In this document: positions 911 through 54,214 of the stretch, one piece after another | Layout: every line of letters starts with the position of its first letter | Numbering within the stretch: position 1 is the stretch's first letter | From: an uncultured Alphaproteobacteria bacterium | GTDB lineage: Bacteria; Pseudomonadota; Alphaproteobacteria; Sphingomonadales; SMXR01 | Reading direction: 5' to 3' | DNA: 55,942 bases | Assembly: GCA_937126915.1 (NCBI GenBank) | Contig: CAKZLM010000115.1 | Coordinates: 1 to 55,942, forward strand | Program-made: the position numbers and the translations under genes | Notes under the pieces: generated by a model | What the model was told of the DNA's origin: nothing | Databases searched by the model: none | The model's input: only the letters and a program-made list of their open reading frames with translations

Positions 911-1088
911 AGGGCCGTTTCATTAGTAAATTGTTCAGCATTCATTCATAGAATGTGATACATATTTTTATTATGGTTAAATCCTTTATCATTGCAATGG
1001 TAAAGAAAAAAGGCAAAATCATGAAAGACGTGATTTATTATGCTTTGGTTGTGGCTTTTTAAACAGGATACGCGAAAGGGTGCTGTTT

Positions 1089-1622
1089 ATGGTTTTCTCT
1101 CAGTTTAAAATTTTTGCGGGGCTTTTAGGGGCTGTTTCAATGGCTGGCGCATTGGCGGCGGCAGAGGTTGATGTCAGGCCAGAGCAAGAGCAAATAGCCC
1201 AATGTTTGACCAAAGACATGAAAACGGCCCGCGTTTTGGTAACGGTTGAGGACATAATGAGCGATGAAGGCAATCTTCGCCTGCAAGTTTATAGTGACAA
1301 TCCTGATGACTTTTTAGAAGGTGGCAAGAAATTGGTGCGGATTGATGTGCCCGCCAAGAAAGACAGCAAACAGGTTTGTGTAACCTTACCCAGAGCTGGC
1401 GACTATGCCTTAGTGGTTCTTCATGATCGAAATGGCAATGGTCGGGCAAACTTTTTTTCCGAGGGATTTGGCTTTTCCAACAATCCAGAATTAAATTTAG
1501 CACCGCCAGAGCATGAAGAGGCTGTTTTTTCTGCAGCAAACGGTGTAAAGAAGATGCAAATTTCGTTAAATTATGTTTTAGAAAGCTCTGACGATAAGAA
1601 AAAGCGCCGCCGCAGACGATAG
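1089..1622 (+). CDS. DUF2141 secreted protein with polybasic C-terminal tail
   Basis: Function unknown. The 177-aa product has a signal peptide (residues 1-25, hydrophobic core then AAAEV) followed by one DUF2141 domain: a beta-rich core with the typical stretch GDYALVVLHDRNGNGRANFF and the later GFGFSNNPE. I placed the start at the ATG at 1089 rather than the in-frame GTG at 1080, because AAAGG at 1075-1079 sits about 9 nt ahead of the ATG. The tail ends in KKKRRRRR, an unusual basic run for a periplasmic protein. The next gene follows after 70 nt on the same strand, so the two may be co-transcribed, but nothing in the sequence ties their functions together. Confidence 0.75.
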   Translation: MVFSQFKIFAGLLGAVSMAGALAAAEVDVRPEQEQIAQCLTKDMKTARVLVTVEDIMSDEGNLRLQVYSDNPDDFLEGGKKLVRIDVPAKKDSKQVCVTLPRAGDYALVVLHDRNGNGRANFFSEGFGFSNNPELNLAPPEHEEAVFSAANGVKKMQISLNYVLESSDDKKKRRRRR

Positions 1623-1692: not shown

Positions 1693-2694
1693 ATGGCCCC
1701 GCCGCGTATTGGGATTATTGTTAACCCGAAAAGTACACAAAATACGACAGGTGTTGATTCACTACTTGATACCGTTTCTCGGGTTGAGGGGGTGATACAC
1801 ATCACCATCGGGCATGATGTGGCAGGTGATATGGCTATGGCGCTTAAGAAAATGGCCCGTATTGAGCCAGAAGTGCTGATCATTTCTGGTGGTGATGGGA
1901 CTATTCAGGCATGCTTTACTGAATTGGAAAATGAAAAACCCTTTGGTGAGCGCGTGCCACCACTGGCCTTTTTACCCTCTGGCAAGACCAACATGATTGC
2001 AGAAGACCTGGGGGCCAAAGGGACACCAATTGAGGTTTTTAAAAGGTTGGTTGAGCTAACCACGGCAGGATATTTACAGCGCCATTTGATTAAACGCGCC
2101 TTTTTAGGTGTCGATTTTGGGCAAGGTCAACGCCCGCTATATGGCATGTTCTTTGGCGGTGCCGCTATCGTTAACGGCATTCAACATTGCCGAAAGAAAA
2201 TTTATCCAATGGGGTGGCCAAACTTTATTTCCCATCCCTTTGCCATCGTAACGCTTCTTTTATCAGCCATGATGGGCGGTAAGAAAAAGGGATCAGCCAT
2301 GTATGCCGACCATGCGGAAATTCATGTACGTGGTGGCGGCTTGTTCAGTGGCCGCTTTGTGGTCATTATTGCCACCACCATGGATCGGTTGCTTTTGGGA
2401 ATGCGTCCTTATGGCCGTGAGGGGTATGGCGACATAGGTTTTTCTTCCGTCGAACATCGCCCTGGTGCCATCTGGGGTGCCATCAAGGGGCTGGTGCGTG
2501 GGACTTTTGGTAAAGTGTTTATCAATGGCGTTCAAACACGCCGCACCCAAGAATTGATTATTCGTTCAAACGACAGTGTTACCCTTGATGGTGAACTGTA
2601 TGATGTGGCTGATGGTGGAACAGTTCGCTTGTTTGCTTCTCCACAATATTTGATGGTGGATCTGACCAAAAAGATTGAGGGCGTTTCATCATGA
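1693..2694 (+). CDS. Diacylglycerol/lipid kinase family protein
   Basis: Likely ATP-dependent lipid kinase that phosphorylates diacylglycerol or a related lipid at the inner membrane. The 333-aa length matches the LCB5/DAGK catalytic family. The NPKS motif at residues 11-14 and the nucleotide-binding GGDGT motif at 66-70 are clear. The third motif, normally P-x-GT-x-N, reads PSGKTN at 95-100, a mild departure. GAAGG at 1681-1685 precedes the ATG by 7 nt. The stop overlaps the start of the next gene by 4 nt (ATGA), so the two are translationally coupled. The downstream gene looks like a phosphatidate cytidylyltransferase, which suggests a two-step route diacylglycerol to phosphatidate to CDP-diacylglycerol (inference). 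The exact substrate cannot be read from sequence, and sphingosine- or ceramide-type lipids are also possible given the nearby sphingolipid genes. Confidence 0.8.
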   Translation: MAPPRIGIIVNPKSTQNTTGVDSLLDTVSRVEGVIHITIGHDVAGDMAMALKKMARIEPEVLIISGGDGTIQACFTELENEKPFGERVPPLAFLPSGKTNMIAEDLGAKGTPIEVFKRLVELTTAGYLQRHLIKRAFLGVDFGQGQRPLYGMFFGGAAIVNGIQHCRKKIYPMGWPNFISHPFAIVTLLLSAMMGGKKKGSAMYADHAEIHVRGGGLFSGRFVVIIATTMDRLLLGMRPYGREGYGDIGFSSVEHRPGAIWGAIKGLVRGTFGKVFINGVQTRRTQELIIRSNDSVTLDGELYDVADGGTVRLFASPQYLMVDLTKKIEGVSS

Positions 2695-3605
2695 CGCAAG
2701 TTCAAGACAAGGGATTGATAGATTATTTGGCGGCTGAAACAGCGCGCACTCAACCAGAGGCCATTGTTCATGCGGCATCCCTGATTAAAGAAAAATATGG
2801 TGATCATGCCTTGGCACTTTTGTTTTATGGCTCTTGCCTTAGAACGGGTGAGGTTGAGGATAAGATGCTCGATTTTTATGTCATCGTTGATGATTATAAA
2901 TCAGCCTATGGATCAAGCCTGCTAGCGGTTGGCAATAAAATGATCCCGCCCAATGTGTTTTATCATGAAGCCGAATGGGACGGCATGACCGTGCGCTCAA
3001 AATATGCCGTGGTGTCATTGGTTGATTTTCAGCGCCGGTGTAGTGATGAAAGTTTAAACATTTCCATATGGGCGCGCTTTTCGCAGCCATCGGTCATAAT
3101 GTTAGCAAAAGAAGACACTGTGGTCGATAAGCTTAACATGGCTCTGGCTGAGGCAGTAAAAACCATGTTGATAAACGCCTTGCCTTATTGTGAAGATAAA
3201 AGCAGCTCATACGAGGTTTGGACCACCGCCTTTGATTTAACCTATAGCGCAGAGTTGCGGTCAGAGAAAAAGGGTAAAGGCGAGGAATTATACGATCTTG
3301 ATAAGGCCCGTTATGACAACTTAACGCCGTTGGTATTGGCGGCATTAGATGATGATGTAAAAACCGCGCCAGAAAAGTCAGTGTCTGGTCGCTGGTTTTG
3401 GCGCCGACTGAATGGCAAGTTTGTTAGTGTGGCGCGTTTGATCAAGGCATCCTTTACCTTTACAGGCGGTATTGATTATTTGGCTTGGAAAATATCGCGC
3501 CATTCAGGGGTTGAGGTTGAGGTTAAGCCTTGGCACCGTAAATTCCCTATCATTGCGGGGCTTACCATGTTGTTAACCTTAAAAAAGAAAGGCGCCATCC
3601 GTTAA
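2691..3605 (+). CDS. Tam41/Mmp37-like putative CTP:phosphatidate cytidylyltransferase
   Basis: 304 aa, resembling the mitochondrial Tam41 (Mmp37) family, which makes CDP-diacylglycerol from phosphatidate and CTP with a nucleotidyltransferase fold. Visible signs: YGS at residues 46-48 followed by KMLDFYVIVDD (58-68), the expected GS...D-x-D arrangement; PPNVFYHE at 86-93; a KYAVVSL block at 104-110; then W...RFSQPSVIM (127-137), matching the family pattern KYGV(V/I)S...GRxxKPV; and an Ala/Leu-rich helical stretch after it. There is no signal peptide and no strong membrane segment, as in Tam41. It is coupled by a 4-nt overlap to the lipid kinase. The assignment is from remembered family patterns, not a search. 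The fallback is an uncharacterised nucleotidyltransferase-fold protein. Confidence 0.6.
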   Translation: MTQVQDKGLIDYLAAETARTQPEAIVHAASLIKEKYGDHALALLFYGSCLRTGEVEDKMLDFYVIVDDYKSAYGSSLLAVGNKMIPPNVFYHEAEWDGMTVRSKYAVVSLVDFQRRCSDESLNISIWARFSQPSVIMLAKEDTVVDKLNMALAEAVKTMLINALPYCEDKSSSYEVWTTAFDLTYSAELRSEKKGKGEELYDLDKARYDNLTPLVLAALDDDVKTAPEKSVSGRWFWRRLNGKFVSVARLIKASFTFTGGIDYLAWKISRHSGVEVEVKPWHRKFPIIAGLTMLLTLKKKGAIR

Positions 3606-3710: not shown

Positions 3711-4910
3711 CTAGATGACATCCAATTTTTTCCCAATTTCAATGAAAGTGGCAACCACGGTTTGGATTTGTTCTGGTGTGTGGCTGGCGCATACGCTGCA
3801 ACGCAAAAGATTTAAGCCTGATGGCGTGGCAGGTGGTAAGGCCATGTTAACATAAACACCACTGCGCAATAATTCCGACCAAAAGAAGGTGCAAACTTCG
3901 TCACTATCAATGCAGACGGCCGTAATAGGGCTTTCGGCCTTATCGGTACCTAATTTAAAGCCTGCATCTTTAAGCCCTTTATGAAGGGCACGTGAATTTT
4001 CCCATAAAACGGCGGCACGGTTGCCTGCATGCATCAATTGCTTAACCGATGTTTTGGCAGAGGCCACAACAGATGGCGGCAAAGATGCCGTAAACATATA
4101 GGGGCGACAAACAAGGCGTAAAACATCAAATTTTGGATGGTTTGAAACACAAAAACCACCGACAGTACCAACACTTTTTGAGAAGGTGCCAATGATGAAG
4201 TCAACGTCTTTTTCAACGCCTTGTGCTTGGGCAACACCACGTCCAGTTTCACCGCAAAAGCCCATTGAGTGAGCCTCATCGACAATGATGCTGGCGCCAA
4301 ACTTTTTCGAAACTGCCACCAATTCAGGAAGCGGGGCTTCATCACCCAACATGCTGTAAATGCCTTCAACAATGACCAGTTTACCAACATTTTCTGGCAG
4401 GCGTCTTAGGCGCTTTTCCAAATCTTCGGCACTGTTATGTTTAAAGCGCACAATGTTAGCTTGGCCCATCTGACAGGCATCATAAATTGAGGCATGGCTA
4501 TCAGCATCGATGATGATATAATCGTCGCGTCCTGCTAGTGTTGAGATAATGCCAAGATTGGCTAAGTAACCAGTTGAAAACACCATGGCATGCTCAGTGC
4601 CATAAAATTCTTTAAGGGCATCTTCCAGCTCAATATGGCTGTTATAAGTACCGTTTAAAACCCGTGAGCCAGTTGTTCCGGTGCCGAAATTATCAACGGC
4701 TTCCTTAGCGGCATCCATAGCTTCTTGGTCAAAGGTTTGGCCCATATAATTATTGGTACCACACAGAATAGTTTCGCGACCATTAATGATGGCAACGGTT
4801 TGTGATAGAACCTTTTCCATTTGAACAGCAAAGGGGTTTTCTGCTTCTTTTGGAAGTTGATCACGGCGTTGGATGATCGGGTCAAATTTATCGAAAAGAT
4901 CAATGCTCAT
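3711..4910 (-). CDS. spt: Serine palmitoyltransferase (alpha-oxoamine synthase)
   Basis: PLP enzyme condensing serine with a fatty acyl thioester to 3-ketosphinganine, the first committed step of sphingolipid synthesis. The 399-aa length fits soluble bacterial SPT. The PLP lysine is K245 in GTFSKS; DEAHSMGF (211-218) supplies the cofactor Asp and His; DADSHAS carries H139, which stacks on PLP. The block VCRPYMFTASLPPSV after the lysine is the SPT-type version rather than KBL or BioF. It is the last gene of the minus-strand set, 15 nt after the acyl carrier protein gene. The neighbouring dedicated ACP implies an acyl-ACP donor, as in the Caulobacter ceramide pathway (established for that system, inferred here). 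Confidence 0.9.
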   Translation of the reverse strand: MSIDLFDKFDPIIQRRDQLPKEAENPFAVQMEKVLSQTVAIINGRETILCGTNNYMGQTFDQEAMDAAKEAVDNFGTGTTGSRVLNGTYNSHIELEDALKEFYGTEHAMVFSTGYLANLGIISTLAGRDDYIIIDADSHASIYDACQMGQANIVRFKHNSAEDLEKRLRRLPENVGKLVIVEGIYSMLGDEAPLPELVAVSKKFGASIIVDEAHSMGFCGETGRGVAQAQGVEKDVDFIIGTFSKSVGTVGGFCVSNHPKFDVLRLVCRPYMFTASLPPSVVASAKTSVKQLMHAGNRAAVLWENSRALHKGLKDAGFKLGTDKAESPITAVCIDSDEVCTFFWSELLRSGVYVNMALPPATPSGLNLLRCSVCASHTPEQIQTVVATFIEIGKKLDVI

Positions 4911-4925: not shown

Positions 4926-5183
4926 TTATTTTTCTTGGTTAATTTTATCAACAGCGTCAGCCACTTGTTGAACCGTTTCAAGGTCAGGCAACATGTTCAA
5001 TGGAATAAGAATGTCATATTCGTCTTCAATGGCCGCAACCAAATCCATCACTGTTAATGAATCCAAATCCAAATCACCTTGAAAAGTGGTGTCTGGTGTG
5101 ATGGTCACATTTTTGCGGTTAAAAGGTTCGATTAAACCAACAATGGTTTCAAAAGTGTTGGTGGCGTTTGCATCCGATGCCAT
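4926..5183 (-). CDS. acpR: Acyl carrier protein dedicated to sphingolipid synthesis
   Basis: Small acidic carrier protein whose phosphopantetheine arm would carry the fatty acyl group from the AasR-type ligase to serine palmitoyltransferase. The start was chosen at 5183, giving 85 aa, because AGGAGAGG lies 4 nt upstream of that ATG on the minus strand. The longer reading frame to 5213 has no such site and adds a 10-residue extension unlike ACPs. The attachment serine is S42 in LDLDSLTVMDL, and the helix-rich acidic remainder fits the family. The symbol follows the Caulobacter ceramide genes and rests on context. Confidence 0.85.
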   Translation of the reverse strand: MASDANATNTFETIVGLIEPFNRKNVTITPDTTFQGDLDLDSLTVMDLVAAIEDEYDILIPLNMLPDLETVQQVADAVDKINQEK

Positions 5184-5381
5184 GGGGCCTCTCCTGTAGT
5201 GCTCAATCATCATCCTTTGATGATCGCAAACATAATTACTCGTTATCTACCACTAACAAAGCCTTGTGATCAATAACATAATGATGCCTAAAAGGAATTT
5301 GTGGCGGGAATAGGGACAATCAACTGATTAATTCTTAAGATGTGTGGTGAGAATTATGGTCTTCTGTATATTTTTATATCT

Positions 5382-6431
5382 TTAGATATTGGATCGCTCA
5401 CCAAGTGTTTTTGCCAAGCCTTTTTCAAGTGTGGTTGATGGTGACCAACTGGTTTGGTCCATGAAAGATTGGAGACTTTGATGATTGACGACCCAATTGG
5501 GATGGCAAATTTCGGCCGCTTTTTTATGGGTTAGCATGGCGGGTTTGCGGGTTAATTGCGCCCATAGTGAACCTAAATAACCCAGAAGATAAATCAGTGT
5601 TTTTGGCATAGTGATTGTCATAACCGAACGCCCGCTAAAGCTTGTGACGATGTTTTTAAGCTGGCCCGTATTATAACCATGATGATGCTGATCGTGCCCA
5701 AAGTCATCTAATTCATAAATATCTGCCATGGGTGGTGCTTTTAAGGCTTTGATCAGGGCACGGGCTAAATCATCGACATAAATAAGAGAGAAACGGCTAT
5801 CACCAAATCCCGCTTTTGGTGCTAACCCAAGCTTAAGCATAGGGTCTAGAACCTTTTGAAATTCTTCGTCGCCAGGGCCATAAACGGCAGGCGGGCGAAT
5901 GATGCAATAGCCACCATCAGGCAAAGCATCTTTGACAGTTTGTTCTGATAAATGCTTTGAATAGGCATAATGAGATAGGCTTGGCTCACGCGCAGCAAGG
6001 CTTGAAACATGGATAAAAAAAGGCTTTTGGACACCATCAGTCTTCTTAACTGCGCTGCTCCCACGGCCTTCTTTCTTGCTTCCAGCATTTTCTTTAGCTT
6101 GTGTTTTAAGAGCCTTGATCAAATTTTCGGTGCCGCCATCATTTACACTGATAAAATCGGCACGTCTTAAGGCTTTAACTAGCCCTGCCATATGAATAAT
6201 AGCGTCCACATTTTTTGTGAGTGAGGTGAGGGCGGTGTCATTTTGCAGGTCGCCTTCTACCCATGTAAGATTTTTATGGTTTAGGGTTTGAGGGCGACGG
6301 GTTAACGCACGGACATTAAAACCAGCGTCTAATAATAGAGGGATTAGGCGTTTGCCAACAAAACCCGTTGCCCCAGTAAGGGCAACAGATTTAATGGAGT
6401 GTGATTGTGTTGAGGTGTCTTCAGCGCCCAT
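5382..6431 (-). CDS. cerR: NAD(P)-dependent epimerase/dehydratase family, ceramide reductase CerR-like
   Basis: Extended short-chain dehydrogenase that by context would reduce the 3-keto group of the oxidised ceramide intermediate. GATGFVG at residues 20-26 is the Rossmann dinucleotide loop and Y155-x3-K159 (YAYSK) the catalytic pair, with upstream HVSS at 141-144. The protein is 349 aa. A Lys/Gly/Ser-rich insertion at about residues 111-136 separates a core strand from the catalytic region and looks like a disordered surface loop. The gene starts 1 nt after the stop of the acyl ligase gene, so they form an operon. The reductase step is known for the Caulobacter homologue; here it is inferred from family plus neighbours. 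A 198-nt gap separates it from the ACP start. Confidence 0.75.
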   Translation of the reverse strand: MGAEDTSTQSHSIKSVALTGATGFVGKRLIPLLLDAGFNVRALTRRPQTLNHKNLTWVEGDLQNDTALTSLTKNVDAIIHMAGLVKALRRADFISVNDGGTENLIKALKTQAKENAGSKKEGRGSSAVKKTDGVQKPFFIHVSSLAAREPSLSHYAYSKHLSEQTVKDALPDGGYCIIRPPAVYGPGDEEFQKVLDPMLKLGLAPKAGFGDSRFSLIYVDDLARALIKALKAPPMADIYELDDFGHDQHHHGYNTGQLKNIVTSFSGRSVMTITMPKTLIYLLGYLGSLWAQLTRKPAMLTHKKAAEICHPNWVVNHQSLQSFMDQTSWSPSTTLEKGLAKTLGERSNI

Positions 6432-6432
6432 A

Positions 6433-8289
6433 CTAGACTGCCAATAATGACATCATCCCACCGTTAAGGAATTGTTGACGAGCCTTAGAACGGCTTAATT
6501 TACCTGACGATGTGCGTGGCAATGTTCTTGGGGGAACCAATTCAATACGCACTTGCACGCCCGTTTCTTGTTGGATTTTGGCTTTAATGTCGTCAGCAAA
6601 TTGTTTGCGCTCTTCCGGGTCACGTTGGCGGCAATGAACCAAAACCGCAGGAACTTCTTCTGCGCCTTCACCGGGCAGTGAAACTGCGGCAATATCACCA
6701 TTACGAAGGCCAGGAAGCTGTTCAGCGGCCCATTCAATGTCTTGTGGCCAGTGGTTGCGACCATTAACAATGATCATGTCTTTGATGCGACCAATGATAT
6801 AAAGGCTACCATCCAGCATATAACCCATGTCACCTGTGTCTAGCCAACCATCTTTGCTAAGAACAGCATCGGTGGTTTCAGGGTCATTATAATAGCCTGT
6901 CATCACGCTTTGACCACGCACAAAAACCTTACCAATGGCGCGATCTGGCAACAGTTGACCATCGTCGCTGCGAATTTCTAACTCAAATTCAGGCAAGGGA
7001 ACGCCACAGTTAACAACATCACGGTAACGCATGCCGTCTTCATCATTGGCAGCAGTGCTGAAAATGTGACCATTGGCAGCGCCGTTTGAGTGGCCATTGC
7101 TGTGGCCATTGGCATGACCATTAGCACCATTGCCATTAACACTATGGCTTTGATTGGCAATTTCAAGGGTTAGCTCGCCGTTTAAAATGCGCTCATCAAC
7201 CTTGTCGGTTACAATGCCTGTGCCCAGTGGCATAAAGCTTACAGCCAAGGTGGTTTCAGCTAAGCCATAGCTTGGTACAAACGCTTGTGGTTTAAAGCCA
7301 GCGTCTGCAAAAACCTCTTCAAAGTGATGCATCACATCAGGGCGGATCATATCACCACCAATACCAGCGACACGCCAAGAGCTAAGATCAAGTTTCGCAA
7401 GGGCGTCTTTACCCACACGGCGCGCGCAAATGTCATACCCAAAGGTTGGGCTGTAGCTAACAGTGCCTTTGTTACGGCTCATAAGGTTAAGCCACGTAAG
7501 AGGGCGGCGGGCAAAGTTTTCGGTCGCTAAATAATCAACCGTAACCTGACAGGTCAGTGGCGTTAAAAAGGTGCCGACAAGGCCCATGTCATGGTAAAAG
7601 GGCAGCCAAGATACGCAGCGGTCATCATCGCTTAGGTTCATGCCAATCTTACCAATACCACCACAGTTAGACAGCAATGATTTATGGGTAATGGCAATGC
7701 CATGTGGGAAGCGTGTGCTGCCCGATGAATATTGCAAGTAAGCGACATCATCTGTTTTTGGAAGAACAGGGACAGATAAATCAAGGTTCAAAGCATTAAA
7801 GTCAGCATCAGAACCAACGAATAAATAATTGCCAGATTTTGCGGCCTCAACAACCATTTCTTTCATGTTGTCAGGGGTGATAACCGCAGAAGCGCCACAG
7901 CTTAACAGTTGACGTTCAAGCTGCTGAATGTAGCTGTCACGACCACCAAAAGAGGTTGGTAATGGCATTGGTACAGGTAATACAGAGGCATATTGTGTCG
8001 CAAGGAAATAGCAAACAAAATCAAGACTGGTTTCTGCAATAAGGGCCATGCGGTCACCGGGCTTTAGACCCAAGGTTACCAATCGCTGGCCAATAGATTT
8101 GGCACGATCACGAATTTCTGTGTAGCTTGCGTGAACATCTAGCTCACCGCGCGCAGAATAAAAATTTAAACCACGACAACCTGATGCCGCATATTCCAGC
8201 GCATCAACAAGTGTTTCAAAGTCAGCATAACGACGAGTAAAATTCTCATCTTTTGTAGGTGCGCCTTCGATCATACTTTTCTTCACCAT
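6433..8289 (-). CDS. aasR: Fatty acyl-AMP ligase / acyl-ACP synthetase AasR-like
   Basis: Adenylate-forming enzyme that activates a fatty acid with ATP and probably loads the neighbouring acyl carrier protein. Motifs: YSSGSTRFP at residues 187-195 (P-loop), YGLAET at 341-346, the TGD of GWLDTGDMGY, and the C-terminal catalytic lysine K597 in SSGKLSRSK. Overall shape is that of fatty acyl-AMP ligases (618 aa). Residues 385-408 form an NGH/NGHS-rich low-complexity insert in the N-terminal domain, not part of the family core. The start could also be M6; neither has a strong ribosome site (GAAGAAA lies just before M6). It is the promoter-proximal gene of the sphingolipid set. No ceramide synthase (BCerS-like acyltransferase) gene occurs in the window. 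Confidence 0.85.
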   Translation of the reverse strand: MVKKSMIEGAPTKDENFTRRYADFETLVDALEYAASGCRGLNFYSARGELDVHASYTEIRDRAKSIGQRLVTLGLKPGDRMALIAETSLDFVCYFLATQYASVLPVPMPLPTSFGGRDSYIQQLERQLLSCGASAVITPDNMKEMVVEAAKSGNYLFVGSDADFNALNLDLSVPVLPKTDDVAYLQYSSGSTRFPHGIAITHKSLLSNCGGIGKIGMNLSDDDRCVSWLPFYHDMGLVGTFLTPLTCQVTVDYLATENFARRPLTWLNLMSRNKGTVSYSPTFGYDICARRVGKDALAKLDLSSWRVAGIGGDMIRPDVMHHFEEVFADAGFKPQAFVPSYGLAETTLAVSFMPLGTGIVTDKVDERILNGELTLEIANQSHSVNGNGANGHANGHSNGHSNGAANGHIFSTAANDEDGMRYRDVVNCGVPLPEFELEIRSDDGQLLPDRAIGKVFVRGQSVMTGYYNDPETTDAVLSKDGWLDTGDMGYMLDGSLYIIGRIKDMIIVNGRNHWPQDIEWAAEQLPGLRNGDIAAVSLPGEGAEEVPAVLVHCRQRDPEERKQFADDIKAKIQQETGVQVRIELVPPRTLPRTSSGKLSRSKARQQFLNGGMMSLLAV

Positions 8290-31154: not shown

Positions 31155-32519
31155 TTAAGCACGAATGTTTTTCAAGAAGCCTTCAACCTCTTCGTTCAAT
31201 TCATCAATGCGAGAGAACACTTCTTGCGTAGAGCTGTTCATGTCAGAGATTGAATTGTTGGTCTCAGTGCTAACATTAGCAATTTCACTCATGTTAAGAG
31301 ATACCTCGGCAGACCCTTTGCTTGCTTCTTGAACGCTTTGGCTAATTTCATTCACCGCGCTACTTTGTTGCTGCATGGTCGCTGCGATTGAGTTTGATAT
31401 CTCTTGAATTTTACTAATGATGTCATCAATGCGTTGATTAACGTCAGCGGATAATTGAGTCGCTTCTTGAATTTCTGCAATTTGGTCAGAAATTTTTGAT
31501 GTTGCTTCAGCGGTTTGACCAGCCAAGCTCTTTACCTCAGATGCCACAACCGCAAAGCCACGACCAGCTTCGCCAGCGCGGGCTGCCTCAATAGTGGCAT
31601 TTAGGGCAAGAAGATTGGTTTGCCCGGCAATATCACTAATCAATTTAACCACACTACCAATTTGCTCACTGGCCTCTACAAGGCCACTCATTGATTCTTT
31701 TGCTTGGCGGGCCTCTAACGCGGCAGAGTTTGAAATTTCGGCTGATTCCGTTACTTGACGAACAATTTCTTCAATCGACGCTGACATTTCTTCAGCTGCT
31801 GCAGCGGCCATTTCAATGTTATTATTGCTTAATTCTGTTGCCATGCTGGCATTGCTAGTGGTTTTTTCTAGGGTGCTAGACAAAGATTCTAGAATAGTCA
31901 CTTTGTCGCGCAGCTGACCAGCAGCAATAGTAACGCCATCAATGGTGCCAATAACATCTTTTTCAAAATTGTTTCCATGCTGATCTAATTCAGACTGGGC
32001 GGCCATGTTGGTTAATTGATGATGACATGAAATCATGATGTCATTTTTCATAAAAGCCAGCATATTTAGCGCACGTACTGCTTTGGCAAGGGGTTCTGGT
32101 TGGTCGCTAAGGTTTTCAAGGATGATGCGTTGACAGCGGTCAAAAATGAGAGAGAAACCAGCCAAATACCAGCGTGGGTCAACGCCAAGGTGGAAATAAT
32201 ATTCCCCCCGAACGGCCATTGCTTTGCCGTATTCTTGATCAACAGGATTGGTAAACAAAAAACGCCAATAGTCTTTTTGGCGTTGTTGATAGTCAGCTAT
32301 ATCAACATTTTTTAATTCTTTAGCAACCTGTTCGATGGTTAAGAGATATTGGTAAAATTCTTCCAAAATATCTGAAAGATTGTCTTCAATATATTCCCAC
32401 GCAAGATTAAGCCCCTTTGTTAATTCCCCATTTAGACCGTAATGAATAACGCGGTCACCCATTTCAACTTGATCTGCAATCGACGCAATTTTTTTATTAT
32501 TATGTTCACTAACTGACAT
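31155..32519 (-). CDS. Soluble globin-coupled methyl-accepting chemotaxis protein
   Basis: 454 aa without membrane segments. The N-terminal protoglobin-type sensor spans about residues 1-180 (helix-rich, ending in the [17 protein letters not shown] region at 106-122). The C-terminal signalling hairpin contains the MCP core [28 protein letters not shown]. The start at 32519 follows GGAGAAG; the longer frame to 32561 lacks a site. In canonical globin sensors the heme His lies four residues before the Gly of IGL-x-PRW; here that position is Tyr108 and a His sits two residues on (H110), so heme binding is uncertain. Probably an aerotaxis or redox receptor for CheA. Confidence 0.85.
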
Positions 32520-32699
32520 TTTTATTCTTCTCCGTAATATAAAGCTTGGGTGGTAATACAAGATTTAGGCGTAAATTCAAAAAGTTTTTTTCAAGAATTG
32601 GATGTTTGGATCAATAAAATTTGTAAAATGTTTTAATTGCTTCATTTTTTGTTCAATTTATCGTAAGGGACAATGATAAAAGTTACAAAAGGACGGGTT

Positions 32700-45220: not shown

Positions 45221-45252
45221 GGCGGGGCCAAGGGGTTCCGCCTTTATTTTTT
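45221..45252 (+). terminator. Terminator after the flagellin array
   Basis: GGCGGGGCC (45221-45229) pairs with GGTTCCGCC (45234-45242, two G-T) and runs into TTTATTTTTT (45243-45252). The T tract overlaps the 3' end of the convergent GH57-like gene. Confidence 0.8.
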
Positions 45253-47217
45253 GATTAAGTCAACTGAATAGCTGAAGATAAGAGGCATCTCTTCAAGTGG
45301 GTCAATTTTCTCTGACTTTCTGGTGTCATCAATTTCAGAGGCAGATAAAAGCAACCGTGCGAAATATCCGTCTTTAACCGTGTCATAGTGAATCATTGCC
45401 ATTAAAGCTGCATCGGCTTTTTGGAAGCTAAGGGCAATTTGTCGTTTTTCATCACCAATCAGAATGCACTGGTTGGTGGCTGCCATTGCTGTGTTGGCTG
45501 AAACAAGTAGCGATAAGCGGCCAGCATGGCTAATGGTTTCTTTACCTTCTAGATAATGGGTGTCTTCGTTTTTATGACCATTGGCACAGCTAAAGAAAAG
45601 AGTGTCTTTGTTAAAAACCAGGGGGTTAAGGGTGGTTTGACCCAAATGGCAGATGCATTGTTGATTAAGTAATTTTTTAAGGCCTTCATACCCGATGGTT
45701 AATTTGCCGTCTTCAAAAAGTTGTACATGCTTGACGATTGGACCGGCGTTGGTTTCAATTGTCGAGGTGACCACCAAACATTGCTGGTCTTGATCAAAAT
45801 AAATCTGAGGTTTTGTGGGGCCTAGGTCGGTAATTTTATGTTGGCCGGGGCGATCAATCGTTAAGTGCCCAGAATAAAAATCAGCGCCCCAAGCAATGTC
45901 ATCATAAAACCCATGCGGAATTGTGCCCATCCAAGGGTGAGGCTGGGAATCATCATTTCGCTTAAAGGCATCAATTGCGAGGCCGCGTTTGGGAGACAGG
46001 GTTAGGGTTACTGCTTGGTTTTTTATGGTTATGGCATAATTATCTTGATGAATAACAAAACCATCAGGAATACCTTCAGATATATTAATGGTTTTTTGAC
46101 GGGGCAGACTAGGTGTTAGTGCACCCAATTTTTTGCGGTAAGACTGCCAACGCGCATCGGTGATGTGGGTGCGAAAATCACTGCTCCAAAGATAACAAAG
46201 GGTTTTCCATTGGCCCAGATCGGCTTCATTTGTCTCAATAAGGTTTTGGTATATACGCCAACAACCCGTATTAATGGCGAGGTCATTACGACCAGTTAAT
46301 GACCATCGGTTTACATTGTATTTACGTTGTTTTTTAACGGTTATTGGACTGCTGTTACTTTCCAGTTTTAGATGATGTTTAGGTAAGTTCTTTGTCGCAC
46401 TTAGAGCATCGCTAGGCAAGACAAGCTTGAAGCGGTCGTCATTGTTTAAAACATCAAAAATTGCTTCAATACGGGCCCATTCCGATTGGCTGGATAAAAG
46501 CGCTTCATTTGAAAAACGGCCCGGGCGATAGTCAAAAATTTCTGCGTCACTGGTATAGAGGGGAATAGCGCGCGCCCCTTGGGCCAATAGTTTTTCTAGA
46601 TAATGGAAATAAGCGTCTGGAGTGATTTGGTCATGGGCAATGCGTTGAAACTGTTGAAAAATAAGGGCATTGCTCCAAAGAATATTTATTTCGTTACCGT
46701 CATGACCGCGCACGATTTGTGGTGCAAGGCCAATGTCGGGTGTCCAGTGGGGGTGATGGCTGGCAGGTTCGGCCCAGTCCATAATGATGGTGTCATAGCC
46801 GTGTTGTATGTAATGGTCCACCATGCCGGGGCTGAAGGCTTGCTCATTGACCAAGGCGATGGTGGGTTTAATGCCCAGCATTGATTGATAAATCATGTCA
46901 CCAATGGTTAAATTATAACTGTTAACCTTTGGCGGCACAGTTGGCCCAATCAATTGACTATATCCACTTCCTATAAATTCAACTTTTCCTGCTTTGATTA
47001 AATCAGCCAGTTTTTTGATCCATTGCGGGGATATTCTCTCAATTTCTTCAAGGGTAAAGCCCGTGGCTTCAAGGCCAATAGGAAGGTTATTATTATTGGC
47101 AAGGTCAAGCAGGGGCCAATAACATTTTTCAACCACATCTTTCCTAGCGTCTTCTTCGATGGAAGAGAAGGCAAGGTTCAGATGAAAAACATTATATAAA
47201 TAAGTCACTTGCGACAT
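45244..47217 (-). CDS. GH57-like polysaccharide-modifying protein
   Basis: 657 aa from ATG 47217 (GGGGA just upstream; a TTG frame reaches 47238). The N-terminal third resembles GH57/polysaccharide-deacetylase-type barrels: YNVFHLNLAF at residues 8-17 takes the place of the first His motif, and E125 in ALVNEQAFSP is a candidate for the GH57 nucleophile position. The C-terminal half is beta-rich, with ISLLV-type strands suggesting a substrate-binding or galactose-mutarotase-like domain. Possibly an alpha-amylase-like or glycan-trimming enzyme. It is the last gene of the glycan operon, 53 nt after its upstream neighbour. Confidence 0.6.
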   Translation of the reverse strand: MSQVTYLYNVFHLNLAFSSIEEDARKDVVEKCYWPLLDLANNNNLPIGLEATGFTLEEIERISPQWIKKLADLIKAGKVEFIGSGYSQLIGPTVPPKVNSYNLTIGDMIYQSMLGIKPTIALVNEQAFSPGMVDHYIQHGYDTIIMDWAEPASHHPHWTPDIGLAPQIVRGHDGNEINILWSNALIFQQFQRIAHDQITPDAYFHYLEKLLAQGARAIPLYTSDAEIFDYRPGRFSNEALLSSQSEWARIEAIFDVLNNDDRFKLVLPSDALSATKNLPKHHLKLESNSSPITVKKQRKYNVNRWSLTGRNDLAINTGCWRIYQNLIETNEADLGQWKTLCYLWSSDFRTHITDARWQSYRKKLGALTPSLPRQKTINISEGIPDGFVIHQDNYAITIKNQAVTLTLSPKRGLAIDAFKRNDDSQPHPWMGTIPHGFYDDIAWGADFYSGHLTIDRPGQHKITDLGPTKPQIYFDQDQQCLVVTSTIETNAGPIVKHVQLFEDGKLTIGYEGLKKLLNQQCICHLGQTTLNPLVFNKDTLFFSCANGHKNEDTHYLEGKETISHAGRLSLLVSANTAMAATNQCILIGDEKRQIALSFQKADAALMAMIHYDTVKDGYFARLLLSASEIDDTRKSEKIDPLEEMPLIFSYSVDLIKK

Positions 47218-47269
47218 AGGGTCCCCAATCTGAGACAAGTTTATCGACAGATTGATGTTCTGACAAGCT

Positions 47270-49009
47270 TCACTTTTTAACTGTTGTCATGATCAGATTT
47301 GCAATACGGGAAATATTGTTGGCTAAAGAATACTTTTTGGCACTTTCTTGCCAAGTTCCTAGTTGATCAGCATTGCTTTTAAGGTTGGAAAGAGACGTCT
47401 TTATGTCATTAAGGGCTAAAGACACTGCTTGCCCTAAAACAAGGCCTAAATCAAGACGTTCAAACATTTTGGCATTGGCCATGTCACCTAAATGATGACA
47501 TATCATCAAAGGTGGTCGCCTCATCATGATAGCCTCATAAGCCGTGATGCCATAACCACATATAATAGCTGAACAATCACCTACAACCTCGGTAATATCA
47601 TGTATGTTTTGATGGAGATTAACCAAGTTCTGTAATGCCTTAAGCGAGCTGGTCAGTGCCTCTTGGTCACTAAAGTTAGGGCCTATGATAACGTCAAACG
47701 GAATTGAAAGCTCATTGCATATAGTTGCCAGTGGAAGAGTAACGTTTTTTGGGTCGCTGCCACCCATTGTTATCAAAATCTTTAGGGTGTTTGCAGTCGG
47801 TTGAGCTATTTCTTTTAAAGGCGGAATGAGGGCAAAATCAAGACCGTGATAGGTATCGCCCTTAATATCTGTGGTCTCTAGGTCAGCTACCAACGGATAA
47901 AAGGCAAGATCAGCCGCTTTTTTGCGTTCAGAGCCATCGTCAATTAAAATAAGTGGTAAGTTAGGTAAGTCGGCCTTAATGGTTTTAAGGTCAGCGAAAC
48001 TTGTATCGTCGCGAATATCAAGGATTGCGGCATCAAACTCTCTCGATTGTAAAATGGAGCATAATTCAGGGCCCTTATGAGCAGGGTTTTCAAGGAAGAT
48101 TGTGCTGAACCCATCAGCTTGATAAGCATCGAGTTTTTCTTTAGGTACGGCATAGGTAATGCCCACTGAATGATGGGTTTTAAGGTAGTTTGCTAATGGT
48201 TTTAAGCGTTTTTCATGACCAAGCCCCATACCATGTCGTATTTCAGGGCACATCAGTATTTTAATGGTTTTTTCATCGGCCCGTTTTTGTCGCACAAAAT
48301 TATTAATCTTAACCAGCTCTGGCTTGGCTTTTAAAATGCTTACGGCATCTTCAATCTCTAAATCCCCTACAGGGGCACCAGTTTCGGCATAAAGGGCTTC
48401 GATAAAGGTTTTGTCTTCTGGTGTGTCGATGGATATGCGGGCGCCCGCAAATATATGGCTTTTAGGCAACGTCATTTTTGCCACATTGCCGTAATCTGGA
48501 TGAAGGGTTAAATAACCGCTAACATGTTCTTTTGCTGCCGGATCATCAGATTTTTCACGCAACAACCGCTCTAAAAAAGCGGATTTCATTATATCGGACC
48601 CCTCATGCAAATAATCATGGCGATCACCAGTGATGATATCGGCCTCACACAGTGATAATTGTTCTAACCCATAATCCAAAAGCCACGGGTCAATGAGGGG
48701 ACTATCACCTGTTATTCTGACAATATAATCACTGGGGAAGGCCTCATGGGCGATGCGAAAGCGCATCAAAACATTATCCAGTGGGCCACGCACAAATTTG
48801 AGTTTGTGACGTTGGCAATAATCAACCAAGGCATCATCAGACGGTTGATCCGAGGTGGCTACCACAATGGTTTTAATATGCTTAGTTTTTTTGAGACGAT
48901 GAATGATGTGCCAAATAAGAGGCTTACCCGCAATGTCGCGCAAAATCTTGCCCGGAAAGCGAGTGGAGCTAAGGCGCGCTTGAATGATGGCAGTGGCATT
49001 TATCATCAT
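47270..49009 (-). CDS. Fusion of SpsF-like cytidylyltransferase and PseG-like glycosyl hydrolase
   Basis: 579 aa, two domains. Residues 1-245: an SpsF/CMP-sugar synthetase-type nucleotidyltransferase with the P-loop-like QARLSSTRFPGK (10-21) and ITGDSPLIDP (99-108). Residues 250-579: a PseG-like domain (HGMGLGHEKRLKPLA from 259 and LITMGGSDPKN later), the family that removes UDP from 2,4-diacetamido-trideoxy sugars in pseudaminic acid synthesis. Activation and UDP-removal are normally separate proteins at different steps, so the fused order suggests a variant nonulosonic or other CMP-sugar route (inference). It lies 15 nt after the ATP-grasp gene in the operon. Confidence 0.75.
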   Translation of the reverse strand: MMINATAIIQARLSSTRFPGKILRDIAGKPLIWHIIHRLKKTKHIKTIVVATSDQPSDDALVDYCQRHKLKFVRGPLDNVLMRFRIAHEAFPSDYIVRITGDSPLIDPWLLDYGLEQLSLCEADIITGDRHDYLHEGSDIMKSAFLERLLREKSDDPAAKEHVSGYLTLHPDYGNVAKMTLPKSHIFAGARISIDTPEDKTFIEALYAETGAPVGDLEIEDAVSILKAKPELVKINNFVRQKRADEKTIKILMCPEIRHGMGLGHEKRLKPLANYLKTHHSVGITYAVPKEKLDAYQADGFSTIFLENPAHKGPELCSILQSREFDAAILDIRDDTSFADLKTIKADLPNLPLILIDDGSERKKAADLAFYPLVADLETTDIKGDTYHGLDFALIPPLKEIAQPTANTLKILITMGGSDPKNVTLPLATICNELSIPFDVIIGPNFSDQEALTSSLKALQNLVNLHQNIHDITEVVGDCSAIICGYGITAYEAIMMRRPPLMICHHLGDMANAKMFERLDLGLVLGQAVSLALNDIKTSLSNLKSNADQLGTWQESAKKYSLANNISRIANLIMTTVKK

Positions 49010-49024
49010 GGTACCCGTTTTTAA

Positions 49025-50266
49025 TTAATCAGTGTTCACGTAGGTAAAGTGAATATTGGCAATGGCTTTTTCTGCATTTTTGATGGCGTCTTCATGGCTC
49101 TGGCCTTTGGCGATGACCATGCCTACACGGCAAGTGTGATCGGTGGTTGCCTTAATGATATCACCTTCCTTAACACGCAATTCATGGTGGATTAGGCTTG
49201 GGTTCTCTTGCCAACTTTCATGGCCTGAAATGGTTTTGATAATTCCCGGTTTGGTAAATAAATAGCGCTGGCAAAGGTGCTTTTCATTCTCGTAAGGGGT
49301 CAGGTCATCGGTTGTCAGTTTTTCGCTTAAGGCTAATTTGATGGCATTTTCAACGAAGGGAATGCCGGTTGAATAAGGAATTTCCATGGTACAAAAATGA
49401 CCACCGCTTAATCGTGTTGCCATTTCTATGATCATCGGCTTACCTTGATGTATGACAATGTCACCCTTAACGACGCCTGTTCTGGCGCCTAAGCTGGTTG
49501 CAGCTTGTTGTACTAGGTCACAGATGTCTTGCCTTAAAATAGGAGAAATGTTGGCGGGCAGTTCACCGCCATCTTCGATCATAAAGGGGGCGTATTCTTT
49601 AATGCGTTGATAATTACGGTCTGAAAAACCAAACGTATGGCAGATGCCGTCAATGACCAAGCTTTCGGTACTTATTTGTGGACCTTCGATAAACTCTTCT
49701 AAAATCAAACGCTTGGTTGGTGAGTGGGAAAGCGCTTCATCAAAGGCCCAGTTGATATCGACATCAGGTAAAAGACGAATAACACCACGCGCACCACGGC
49801 TATCAGCAGGTTTAAGGATATGGGCTGTTGTTGGCTTTGCAGATAAAACCTCTTCCAATTGGGGCAGGGTGGTTAACTCGTAATATTGCGGAATGGCGAC
49901 CTTGTCTTTTTGAAACGCCTGCTTCATATGCACTTTGTCGATAGATGTAAGGGCTGTCTCAAGGCTATTTCCAGCCAGTCCAAGCTTATTGGCAACGGCT
50001 GCCACTGTATGGGGTATGTCAGACGCAACCGCAATAACACCATCAATAGGGCGAACATTAGTATGATAATCACAGGCCTTTTCAGCAGTGCCCTTGAGGT
50101 CATAAGTGCTGGATAGAATGAAATCATCAGCTACATTAGCCCCAGCTGCATCAACAGCACCATCTGTAGCGACCACAAAAAGACCCATGGATTGGGCTAT
50201 TTTGATGCCGGGCAGGGCTTCAATTCCAGCACCAACAACCAATAATGTTTTTTTGTGATCAGCCAT
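49025..50266 (-). CDS. ATP-grasp family ligase
   Basis: 413 aa of the carbamoyl-phosphate/D-Ala ligase type. The N-terminal pre-ATP-grasp Rossmann part VVGAGIEALPGIKIAQSMGLFVVATD is followed by the ATP-grasp core with ILKPADSRGARGV at about residues 150-162 and GDIVIHQGKPMIIEMATRLSGG at the metal site. Such enzymes join a carboxylate to an amine or thiol through an acyl phosphate. In this operon it may attach an amino acid to a sugar (inference). Neighbours are the SDR gene and the SpsF-PseG gene. Confidence 0.75.
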   Translation of the reverse strand: MADHKKTLLVVGAGIEALPGIKIAQSMGLFVVATDGAVDAAGANVADDFILSSTYDLKGTAEKACDYHTNVRPIDGVIAVASDIPHTVAAVANKLGLAGNSLETALTSIDKVHMKQAFQKDKVAIPQYYELTTLPQLEEVLSAKPTTAHILKPADSRGARGVIRLLPDVDINWAFDEALSHSPTKRLILEEFIEGPQISTESLVIDGICHTFGFSDRNYQRIKEYAPFMIEDGGELPANISPILRQDICDLVQQAATSLGARTGVVKGDIVIHQGKPMIIEMATRLSGGHFCTMEIPYSTGIPFVENAIKLALSEKLTTDDLTPYENEKHLCQRYLFTKPGIIKTISGHESWQENPSLIHHELRVKEGDIIKATTDHTCRVGMVIAKGQSHEDAIKNAEKAIANIHFTYVNTD

Positions 50267-50278
50267 TTTTGTGCTGCC

Positions 50279-51007
50279 CTATACCCACGCGCCGCCATTA
50301 ATGCTCATGGTTTGTGCGGTCATATAGCTCGATTCATCCGAGGCTAAGAAAACAGCGGCACCCGTCATGTCTTCAACCGTGCCTAAATGTTTTAAAAGCA
50401 ACAAGTTATCAACCAATTTGCGCACATCTGGAGCCATAGATTTAGCTGTGAATTCATTGCCAATAACACCAGGTGATAGGCAGTTTACGCGAATTTTACG
50501 ATCTCCCACAAAACGTGCTAAACAATGGGTTAAAGACATAACACCAGCCTTTGCCGCGGCATAAGATGGGGTGCGTGGCCCGCCATATTCACCCGAAAGT
50601 GAACCGATATTAATGATAGAACCACCCTCATTCATATGCGGCAATATTTTTTGACAGCATAAAAACACACCTTTAAGGTTTACGTCTAAAACAAAGTCCC
50701 AATCTTCTTCACTTAATTTGTCAAAGTCGTTGGTTTTGTTAACGCCAGCATTGTTGACTAACACATCCACGCCGCCGGTTTTTTGGGCAACATCAGCAAA
50801 CACATCGACAATTTGTTGGCTGTCACGAACATCTAAGTGATAAACCAAATCAGTGTTGCAGTTTTTAGCGGTTTCAACGGCACCATCTTTATTATTATTA
50901 TAGGTGACAACTACAGTGGCACCTTCGCGGGCATAGCTTTCAGCAATTGCTTTGCCAATGCCGCTGCTTGATCCGGTAACAATACAAACTTTATTTTCTA
51001 AACGCAT
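50279..51007 (-). CDS. SDR-family oxidoreductase
   Basis: 242 aa classical short-chain dehydrogenase. TGSSSGIGKA at residues 11-20 binds NAD(P), NNAG at 85-88, and the catalytic S136, Y149 and K153 (SYAAAKAG) are in place. Probably reduces or oxidises a sugar hydroxyl in the operon pathway. A FabG-type role is a weaker alternative given its neighbours. It is 12 nt from the ATP-grasp gene. Confidence 0.85.
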   Translation of the reverse strand: MRLENKVCIVTGSSSGIGKAIAESYAREGATVVVTYNNNKDGAVETAKNCNTDLVYHLDVRDSQQIVDVFADVAQKTGGVDVLVNNAGVNKTNDFDKLSEEDWDFVLDVNLKGVFLCCQKILPHMNEGGSIINIGSLSGEYGGPRTPSYAAAKAGVMSLTHCLARFVGDRKIRVNCLSPGVIGNEFTAKSMAPDVRKLVDNLLLLKHLGTVEDMTGAAVFLASDESSYMTAQTMSINGGAWV

Positions 51008-51015
51008 ATGGGGTC

Positions 51016-51684
51016 CTAACCTTCGTATTCTTTTCGTTGGTCATCAGACAAGGTGTTCCAAGCTGATAAAAAGTCATTTTCACCCTGTAATACCAATGGG
51101 TTGGTATAAACATTTTTCCAAGTGGTTGGGGGAACAGTTACAGCATCCGCACCGCTTGAGGCCGATTCCATCAGTTCGTGGCTGTTGCGAATGCTGGCCA
51201 GTAAAATTTGGGTTTTGCTGCCCATCACATTACGTAGTTTTTCTAGGGCGCTGGTGTTGCCTGATCCATCCAAGTAAAAATCCCGCAAACGCCCCAAAAT
51301 TAGGCTCACATAATCAGCATTAAGCATTAAAAATGGAATGGTTTGAGTGGGGTCAAAATTAAGAGTGATATTTAAGGGAATACCCATTTCTTTAAGTTCC
51401 TTAGCCGCTTTATAGCCCTCCAAGGTTGATGGGATTTTCACCACGATATTATCGGCGATTTTAGCGAGACGATGGCCTTGCTCGATCATTTCATTGCTGG
51501 TGCGATAGGTTACTTGTGCAGAGACAGGCCCATTAACCATATTGGCCACTGTACGAACATGGTCTAGGGCTTTACCGGTTTCTTTGGACAGAATGGCAGG
51601 GTTGGTGGTTACCCCATGAACCAAGCCAAATTGTTGCCAATATTCAATATCTTCAATTGAAGCAGTATCCAAAAAATATCTCAT
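51016..51684 (-). CDS. Transaldolase / fructose-6-phosphate aldolase-like protein
   Basis: 222-aa TIM-barrel of the short transaldolase family. The Schiff-base lysine is K83 in NIVVKIPSTLEG; the opening MRYFLDTASIEDIEYW and GVTTNPAIL (24-32) are typical. Its place inside a glycan operon suggests it builds or splits a sugar carbon skeleton for the dedicated pathway instead of serving central metabolism. 8 nt from the SDR gene. Confidence 0.8.
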   Translation of the reverse strand: MRYFLDTASIEDIEYWQQFGLVHGVTTNPAILSKETGKALDHVRTVANMVNGPVSAQVTYRTSNEMIEQGHRLAKIADNIVVKIPSTLEGYKAAKELKEMGIPLNITLNFDPTQTIPFLMLNADYVSLILGRLRDFYLDGSGNTSALEKLRNVMGSKTQILLASIRNSHELMESASSGADAVTVPPTTWKNVYTNPLVLQGENDFLSAWNTLSDDQRKEYEG

Positions 51685-51708
51685 TGTCTGAAGTCCTTTT
51701 GTCTTTAT

Positions 51709-53088
51709 TTATGCGCTGGCTTTTCTGGCGTTTTGATCAAAACCATAGAAGCCAATTTTATAATCATGGTATGGATAATTTAATTGATCAAGCATTTGTG
51801 TAATAGGCGCTTTGTAACGTTTTCCTTTAAGTTCAGGTGTTAGGTTCAAAAAGGCTTGAATAAGATCACGGTCAAGGAAGGGATAGCGTGATTCAACCCC
51901 AAAATGCCCATTCATGCGTTCATTGCCTCCTAATAACACTTGGTTCCAGCCAGCATTAAAATTGACCCATGGTTTGTTGGCTTTAGTCCAATCACCTTTA
52001 AGGCACGAACGGCGTGAATTAGAAAATTCGTTATAATAATCAGAAATAATTTCATCAGCACCCTGACCAGACATTAAAATCAACTGCCCGTTGGATTTAG
52101 CCAGCTTTGAGATATAGGCAGAGCCTAAAAAGCCACCAATAGTGCGAACATCAGGATCTGGATATTTCACATCGGGTGTGCCAGCATATTCAATGGCATA
52201 ATAAGGCGCGTCTTGTTTTACTTCTGCTTCAAAGGCATCCCACTCAGCAGGGCTTGGGTCTAATTCGACAAAATCTAGTCCTTGTTCTGCCATGAGGGCT
52301 TTACGAGCGGCTAAAATTTCGGCTTTTTCGCCATATGGCATGGCATAGCTGGCAAATTTAACACCTTGGTGCATCAATTCAGCCGCAATTAAGCCACTGT
52401 CATGACCACTGCTTAAGGGTACGAAAATAGGGTGTTGTGCGGTTTTGCTACGCTTTTGAATGGCTTTTTGAAAGGCTTTTGTAAAATCATCATAATGGTC
52501 GGTGTTTGCATTTTCAAAATCAAAATGATGCAGTGTTTCTTCTGATATAATGCTGTAATCAACCAAACTGATCGTCAATATGGTGTTTGCATTTAACTGA
52601 AGAGGTTTAGCTGATGGTAAGGCAGCTGTGCAGGTAACATCATAGCTGCCTGCTACAAGGGCACCATCATGAATGGCATAATAAAGTGGCTTGGTGGTGA
52701 AATAGTCGGTGACAAAAGTAACCGTGTTGCGGGCTTGATTGTATAGAATGATAGCAAATTCACCATCAAGACCGTGCAAGCAATCCATGCCGTCTTCTTT
52801 TAAGCGGCGCTGTAAATAGTCGCTGTCGCTGTAAGAAGGCGAATAATTCTGCCAATCATTATAAATTTCACCATTATAAAGGCCATAACCATCAGGCAGC
52901 GCAAAGGGTTGCTTGCCATCGCCTGTGATGCTTAAGATGGTGTGCATGGCAATCGTATGATCCATCTCGAAGACATTTGTTGCATCAGGTCCACGAAAAC
53001 GCAAGGTGTACTCAACCGCAGTAAGGTTATCCTTGATTGCAGCTAAGGTGTTTTGATTATTACTATGGGCGAAAAATATACCGCACAT
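51709..53088 (-). CDS. Class II glutamine amidotransferase / asparagine synthase-like protein
   Basis: 459 aa, shorter than AsnB (about 550-630). The nucleophile is C2 (MCGIFF), with RFRGPD (30-35) and YNGEIYN (71-77) of the glutaminase domain. The synthase half has the PPi loop as SSGHDS (226-231), in place of the usual SGGxDS. The PPi-loop change and reduced length suggest an amide-forming enzyme on a sugar acid or other carboxylate and not on aspartate (inference). It is followed by the transaldolase after 24 nt. Confidence 0.8.
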   Translation of the reverse strand: MCGIFFAHSNNQNTLAAIKDNLTAVEYTLRFRGPDATNVFEMDHTIAMHTILSITGDGKQPFALPDGYGLYNGEIYNDWQNYSPSYSDSDYLQRRLKEDGMDCLHGLDGEFAIILYNQARNTVTFVTDYFTTKPLYYAIHDGALVAGSYDVTCTAALPSAKPLQLNANTILTISLVDYSIISEETLHHFDFENANTDHYDDFTKAFQKAIQKRSKTAQHPIFVPLSSGHDSGLIAAELMHQGVKFASYAMPYGEKAEILAARKALMAEQGLDFVELDPSPAEWDAFEAEVKQDAPYYAIEYAGTPDVKYPDPDVRTIGGFLGSAYISKLAKSNGQLILMSGQGADEIISDYYNEFSNSRRSCLKGDWTKANKPWVNFNAGWNQVLLGGNERMNGHFGVESRYPFLDRDLIQAFLNLTPELKGKRYKAPITQMLDQLNYPYHDYKIGFYGFDQNARKASA

Positions 53089-53163
53089 GGTTTGATGACC
53101 CTTATTAAAAAGCTTTCAACTGGAATTGCAATTATGATGCCGAACTTCTGTTGTACGTGAAAA

Positions 53164-54201
53164 TTAGTCTTTTAAATCATAGGCTTCTTTCATGGTGACA
53201 ATGGCTTTTATCTTGTCACCAGCAATGGAACGTGCTTCTGGTCTTATTTCATGTTCATACAAAAGGGAATTGATATATAGTGTAAAGCTATCAAAATTAG
53301 CCATATGTTCAGGGGCGAAGACATCAACGCCATAACAATTTTTGCCCTGCTTTTTGGGATCTTTATCAACATAACATAAGATATCATCAATGTTCATTTG
53401 ATAATGTAAGTCATCAACGGCTAATTGGCTACCTACACCCCAAACAACAACGGGGCCCTCAATTTTTAGTGGTGGGAGTTTATAATTAGGCTGCTTTTCA
53501 ACTAAATCACGTGCTCGCATAGCAAGTAACTGCATGCCAAGAGGACATCGCTGGTTATGAAAAATAGATGTTCTTAGGTCAATGATTACATAACCTAATC
53601 TTTCTAAAAAACGACCGATTGAGGTCACGCTGAAAAAATGCAAATGGGATGTGTTTTCATCATAATAAAAGCGTGGATGACCGCTTCTGTTGGGTACTTC
53701 TAAATAGATCATTCCCCCTTTAGATAATAAACAGTCAAAGGCCTTGATAAAGTCTCCAATATCCCAAATGTGTTCTAGGGTGTGATTGCAAATCATTAGG
53801 TCAAATTGGTGAGTGCCTCTATTAGCTAGTTCCTGAATTGTCATATTGTGGACGACATCAACTTTTGTTTCTGCCTCTTTGTAGCGGGGCGAAATTTCTA
53901 CCCCTTCATATGATTTAAAAGGAACATTTTGGCGCAGTAATTGTGCGTAATTTCCATCAGAGACACCCACTTCAAGCGCTCTCATGTTTTGAGTGTGAAA
54001 TAATGATAATAAGTCATAAGCGGGCTGCATACGGGCATCAGACGTTTCGGAAAACATTGGGTTATTATCATAGTCATAAATAATATTTTCTGTGCGCCAC
54101 ATATGACAACATTGGTCGCAAATGTAACAATCACCTGATACGAGTGAAATGGTTTGATTAGGTTTTTCCCCACAGCACGGACAATGGTTAGAGTTGCTCA
54201 T
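53164..54201 (-). CDS. Class I SAM methyltransferase with N-terminal zinc ribbon (C-methyltransferase-like)
   Basis: 345 aa. The first 35 residues have two C-x2-C pairs (C7/C10 and C28/C31), a small zinc ribbon. The SAM core includes ALEVGVSDGNYAQLL (about residues 75-89) and FDLMICNHTLEHIWD. The C-terminal part has a Rossmann-like VVWGVGSQLAVDDL at about 264-277, as in sugar C-methyltransferases. Likely methylates a nucleotide sugar. A 75-nt gap separates it from the amidotransferase gene downstream. Confidence 0.75.
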   Translation of the reverse strand: MSNSNHCPCCGEKPNQTISLVSGDCYICDQCCHMWRTENIIYDYDNNPMFSETSDARMQPAYDLLSLFHTQNMRALEVGVSDGNYAQLLRQNVPFKSYEGVEISPRYKEAETKVDVVHNMTIQELANRGTHQFDLMICNHTLEHIWDIGDFIKAFDCLLSKGGMIYLEVPNRSGHPRFYYDENTSHLHFFSVTSIGRFLERLGYVIIDLRTSIFHNQRCPLGMQLLAMRARDLVEKQPNYKLPPLKIEGPVVVWGVGSQLAVDDLHYQMNIDDILCYVDKDPKKQGKNCYGVDVFAPEHMANFDSFTLYINSLLYEHEIRPEARSIAGDKIKAIVTMKEAYDLKD

Positions 54202-54214
54202 AGAAACCTTCTTT

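Follow-up and report, generated by a model that had tools for sequence, protein, structure and literature searches.

Two adjacent genes at positions 1693 to 3605 of a 55,942-nucleotide stretch of DNA from an uncultured alphaproteobacterium (hereafter the window) are probably cpgB and cpgC of the ceramide phosphoglycerate pathway, and would convert ceramide to ceramide-1-phosphate and, in a predicted CpgC step, to CDP-ceramide. The original prediction had read the same genes as a two-gene route from diacylglycerol through phosphatidate to CDP-diacylglycerol (CDP-DAG). Its coordinates, protein lengths and 4-nt overlap are exact on re-reading of the sequence: the TGA stop of the kinase gene sits inside an ATGA, and the ATG of the same ATGA, at position 2691, is the start of the cpgC-like gene. 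The pair and its neighbors are arranged as follows.

1080 to 1622, plus strand: DUF2141 protein, upstream of the kinase (PF09912, E 2.7e-23)
1693 to 2694, plus strand: cpgB-like gene for a 333-aa lipid kinase predicted to act on ceramide (DAGK_cat PF00781, E 1e-12; GGDG motif)
2691 to 2694, plus strand: ATGA shared by the end of the kinase gene and the beginning of the cpgC-like gene (read from the sequence)
2691 to 3605, plus strand: cpgC-like gene for a 304-aa nucleotidyltransferase of Tam41 fold, predicted to be a CTP:ceramide-1-phosphate cytidylyltransferase (AlphaFold2 model, PDB matches, invariant residues)
3446 to 3605, plus strand: C-terminal part of the CpgC-like protein, residues ~252-304, mostly past the stretch matched to Tam41 structures
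3711 to 4910, minus strand: serine palmitoyltransferase, for the initial step in making ceramide (NF047603, 650.8 bits against a cut-off of 670; NF047599, 621 bits, exceeding its cut-off of 500)
4926 to 5213, minus strand: dedicated acyl carrier protein, acpR-like (PP-binding PF00550, E 2.9e-11)
5382 to 6431, minus strand: NAD-dependent reductase, cerR-like (Epimerase PF01370, E 8.2e-28; syntenic in relatives)
6433 to 8289, minus strand: fatty acyl-AMP ligase, aasR-like (NCBIfam NF006624, 823 bits, above cut-off)

The ceramide cluster lies directly downstream of the cpgBC-like pair on the opposite strand, such that the cpgC-like gene stands beside both cpgB and spt-acp-cerR-aasR. The kinase gene is directly upstream of the cpgC-like gene in 62 of 80 named relatives, a serine palmitoyltransferase gene is within the fetched flank in 64 of the 80, and the acpR-like gene is syntenic in 57 of the 80 loci. 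In the remaining 18 of the 80 the kinase gene is not adjacent; eight of them, all Sphingobium, were searched, and each has it elsewhere in the genome. A 4-nt overlap of cpgB and cpgC is possible in 14 of 62 relatives, most of the others having short gaps. Neighbors that cluster in the relatives, with names assigned by eye and not via family search, include LptF/LptG-like proteins, a ceramide-synthase-like GNAT protein, a flippase, a hydroxylase/desaturase, a CofC-like nucleotidyltransferase, a metallophosphoesterase and CpgA-like CDP-alcohol transferases, a set of genes of the type reported for Caulobacter CC_1152-CC_1168 (PMC11324152). Intrinsic terminators and promoters were not found above chance in the region. 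The DUF2141 protein (1080 to 1622), encoded directly upstream of the kinase, likely carries a signal peptide and is kept in 39 of the 80 relatives' loci; the sections of PMC11324152 consulted do not list it with the Caulobacter sphingolipid genes, and it is possibly an unrecognized partner.

The pair is also tied to ceramide synthesis by its distribution. A cpgC-like gene was found in 21 of 190 alphaproteobacterial genomes and a kinase gene (E ≤ 1e-12) in exactly those 21, all of which are among the 25 with a serine palmitoyltransferase (E ≤ 1e-100). Fisher values for co-occurrence across the 190 genomes are 2e-28 and 3e-24, computed on counts that are not independent because the genomes share ancestry. 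A relative counted early (L022, in genome G029) was a glyoxalase-type false positive and was dropped, leaving the 21 genomes. A scan of 398 genomes of the phylum with PF09139 gave one sub-threshold match, a cpgC-like gene with a cpgB-like neighbor, that family search being too insensitive for claims of presence or absence. Two genomes of the same order as the source (G012 and G145) have serine palmitoyltransferase and lack both the kinase and the Tam41-like gene, so their ceramide is probably decorated in another way. A CpgA-like CDP-alcohol transferase is present in 13 genomes, all within the 21, and the same search found none in the other 8. One or two additional CpgA-like transferases lie near the sphingolipid cluster in G037, G165, G163 and G186 (L141-L144, L146, L147), and G093 (L145) has one or two on another contig; these are candidates for enzymes that use CDP-ceramide.

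The first gene had been assigned to the diacylglycerol kinase family of lipid kinases, and PF00781 (DAGK_cat, E 1e-12) bears this out, as does ISGGDGT in its sequence, the GGDG motif of DAGK_cat kinases; of the 21 genomes with this kinase, 21 also encode serine palmitoyltransferase. The match to YegS structures (2jgr, 2bon) is weak. In Caulobacter, the purified CpgB protein phosphorylates ceramide, and deletion of cpgB leaves phosphatidic acid levels unchanged (PMC10331486). Like the Caulobacter enzyme, for which the reaction has been demonstrated, the window kinase is predicted to make ceramide-1-phosphate from ceramide and ATP.

By itself, the 304-aa protein has no Pfam match, no notable match to NCBIfam or to PDB sequences, no match to CTP_transf_1 (PF01148; integral membrane CdsA/CDS) and no match to the Tam41/Mmp37 family (PF09139), whose gathering cut-off it does not reach. 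The profile comparison with Tam41 thus failed for the window protein and succeeded for its relative L018, which exceeds the PF09139 gathering score (28.8 versus 24 bits); at E ≤ 1, 8 of 63 sequences in the set of relatives match. When the window protein, A1, A3 and L018 were used in single-sequence and profile searches of the PDB, no Tam41 match was returned; the case for Tam41 is thus built on structure and on the relatives' Pfam matches. An AlphaFold2 model computed from a 19-sequence alignment (mean pLDDT 90.6, pTM 0.88) has a nucleotidyltransferase fold, and its best PDB matches are the three solved Tam41/CDP-DAG synthases (Foldseek E 2e-8, for 6ig4, to 5e-8), in agreement with the Tam41-type likeness first proposed. 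VIA-align gave Z 18.7 against 7ecd (rmsd 3.0, 221 residues) and Z 14.1 against 6ig4 (rmsd 4.6, 216 residues), with aminoglycoside nucleotidyltransferases as the next family (Z 8.3).

The motifs originally quoted as a Tam41 layout are all present and are conserved among the 62 relatives: YGS (residues 46-48), DFYVIVDD (61-68), PPNVFYHE (86-93), KYAVVSL (104-110) and W127 followed by RFSQPSVI (129-136). Residues Y46, G47, S48, D61, K104, W127, R129, Q132, E188, R190 and E192 are invariant in this family of 62. At the first two acidic positions, which were those compared, D61 is present in 62 of 62, and position 63, the second acidic site of the usual DxD, is nearly always Tyr and never acidic. 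Of the three acidic residues typical of the nucleotidyltransferase fold, Tam41 has been reported to keep just one (PMC11646218), and the D61 and Tyr pattern, as judged from aligned sequences, appears to be in line with that single-Asp site. Invariance of the catalytic pattern argues against CpgC being a regulatory or adaptor protein, and the role of phosphoglycerate cytidylyltransferase belongs to CpgD, which is dispensable for CPG (PMC12275187); although a single protein without a family match would suit either, we consider it improbable that CpgC is an adaptor or a nucleotidyltransferase acting on another substrate of the cluster, such as phosphoglycerate.

The modeled nucleotidyltransferase fold would not by itself fix which nucleotide or which lipid is used. 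A route from diacylglycerol to CDP-DAG, as first proposed, would account for Tam41 structures being the closest fold of the CpgC model and for the DAGK_cat domain of the kinase, and a bacterial Tam41 from a Firmicute makes CDP-DAG (PMC11646218). However, the source genome already encodes a strong, ordinary CdsA as a separate gene on contig C64 (PF01148, 192 bits), the pair is confined to serine palmitoyltransferase genomes among the 190, a serine palmitoyltransferase cluster adjoins it, it matches CpgB and CpgC, and the Caulobacter findings on CpgB point to ceramide. Diacylglycerol and phosphatidate are therefore not supported as substrates and the CDP-DAG route is highly improbable; ceramide-1-phosphate, rather than phosphatidate, is most likely the substrate of the Tam41-like enzyme. 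The tight coupling of the genes, and the kinase product as the likely substrate of the second enzyme, are retained from the original prediction. That prediction had also pointed to the kinship of this lineage with mitochondria; an origin tied to mitochondria is not supported. Relatives of CpgC turn up in phyla such as Nitrospirota and Calditrichota, and also on Pseudomonas and Diaphorobacter plasmids, a spread that would speak against a specific tie to the mitochondrial ancestor, and nothing indicated that eukaryotic Tam41 is especially close.

With genome location, family, fold and co-occurrence as observed, and substrate and product as we infer them, we favor CpgC as a Tam41-fold CTP:ceramide-1-phosphate cytidylyltransferase, and CDP-ceramide as the bacterial sphingolipid counterpart of CDP-diacylglycerol, with moderate confidence. 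CpgC would most likely transfer CMP from CTP onto ceramide-1-phosphate, yielding CDP-ceramide and pyrophosphate; in a later step, another enzyme would displace CMP with glycerate or phosphoglycerate to give ceramide phosphoglycerate. In Caulobacter, loss of cpgC by mutation abolishes both CPG and CPG2 (PMC11324152). Alternatively, CpgC might itself join (phospho)glycerate to ceramide-1-phosphate with no free CDP-ceramide, for example through a bound nucleotidyl-activated intermediate or another nucleotide. By genetics, CpgC acts between ceramide-1-phosphate and CPG, and no other gene is known for this interval (PMC11324152; PMC13228409). The family also has a strongly conserved C-terminal motif, KxxxTFxGGxDYxxWKIxRHSGV, with conserved columns K252, T256, Y263, K267, H271 and P286 in the 62 relatives; the best reported VIA alignment to Tam41 stops at model residue 257, and this conserved part outside the matched region would suit a joining activity. 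The fold, in contrast, is that of a CMP-transferring enzyme, and the active-site pattern appears to be so as well. We know of no single Tam41-like protein that performs both activation and joining, and we regard direct joining by CpgC as unlikely.

Genes for other predicted steps are found elsewhere in the source genome. A ceramide-synthase homolog is on a different contig, and contig C151 (L121 4712-9529, in the source genome G000) has a CDP-alcohol transferase, one of three in the genome, close to a MobA/CMP-transferase-like protein, a HAD phosphatase and an NTP-transferase. These resemble CpgA, CC_1153, a phosphatase and CpgD, and this cpgA/cpgD-type cluster is probably the branch that would add a second phosphoglycerate. 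The window itself also encodes a protein that joins a protoglobin domain to a methyl-accepting chemotaxis signaling domain (31155 to 32561) and a surface polysaccharide-like region (45244 to 55459) with cytidylyltransferase, asparagine-synthase-like, pyruvyl transferase and GH57 genes.

The mechanism of CpgC was called "unidentified" in 2025 (PMC12275187) and 2026 (PMC13228409), and the Tam41-fold match narrows this gap to one reaction, that of CTP with ceramide-1-phosphate. Ceramide phosphoglycerates allow Caulobacter to survive without lipopolysaccharide and render it polymyxin-sensitive (PMC12275187, PMC13228409). Olea-Ozuna and colleagues noted in 2024 an InterPro hint of a CDP-DAG synthase in CC_1161 and suggested an NDP-activated ceramide (PMC11324152); the term "CDP-ceramide" occurs in none of the papers searched. 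The genes studied here are new members of that known pair, and our reading agrees with the 2024 idea, adding a confident Tam41 fold, the active-site pattern, the strict co-occurrence and a structural case for CDP-ceramide. If true, the reaction would parallel glycerophospholipid activation, with a mitochondrial-type enzyme fold acting on bacterial sphingolipids.

The window pair matches CpgB (CCNA_01218/CC_1160) and CpgC (CCNA_01219/CC_1161) of Caulobacter crescentus, described as the same kinase and CDP-DAG-synthase-like protein beside serine palmitoyltransferase and ceramide genes, because the ceramide cluster adjoins it, it occurs among the 190 genomes only in those with serine palmitoyltransferase, and the source genome separately encodes CdsA, a ceramide-synthase homolog and a cpgA/cpgD-type cluster; orthology is drawn from synteny and description. 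Unlike in Caulobacter, cpgA of the source genome is not beside cpgB but on another contig. The kinase shares its domain (PF00781) with YegS and other DAGK_cat bacterial lipid kinases, yet it scores far under every NCBIfam YegS cut-off and groups with ceramide genes. Similarly, CpgC has in common with Tam41/Mmp37 (PF09139; 6ig2, 6ig4) and the Firmicutes Tam41 (7ecd) a fold over residues ~2-257, the YGS motif and, as it appears from aligned sequences, a single catalytic-type Asp, and differs from them in its ~16% identity, its score under the Pfam cut-off, its additional conserved C-terminal part and its sphingolipid gene surroundings.
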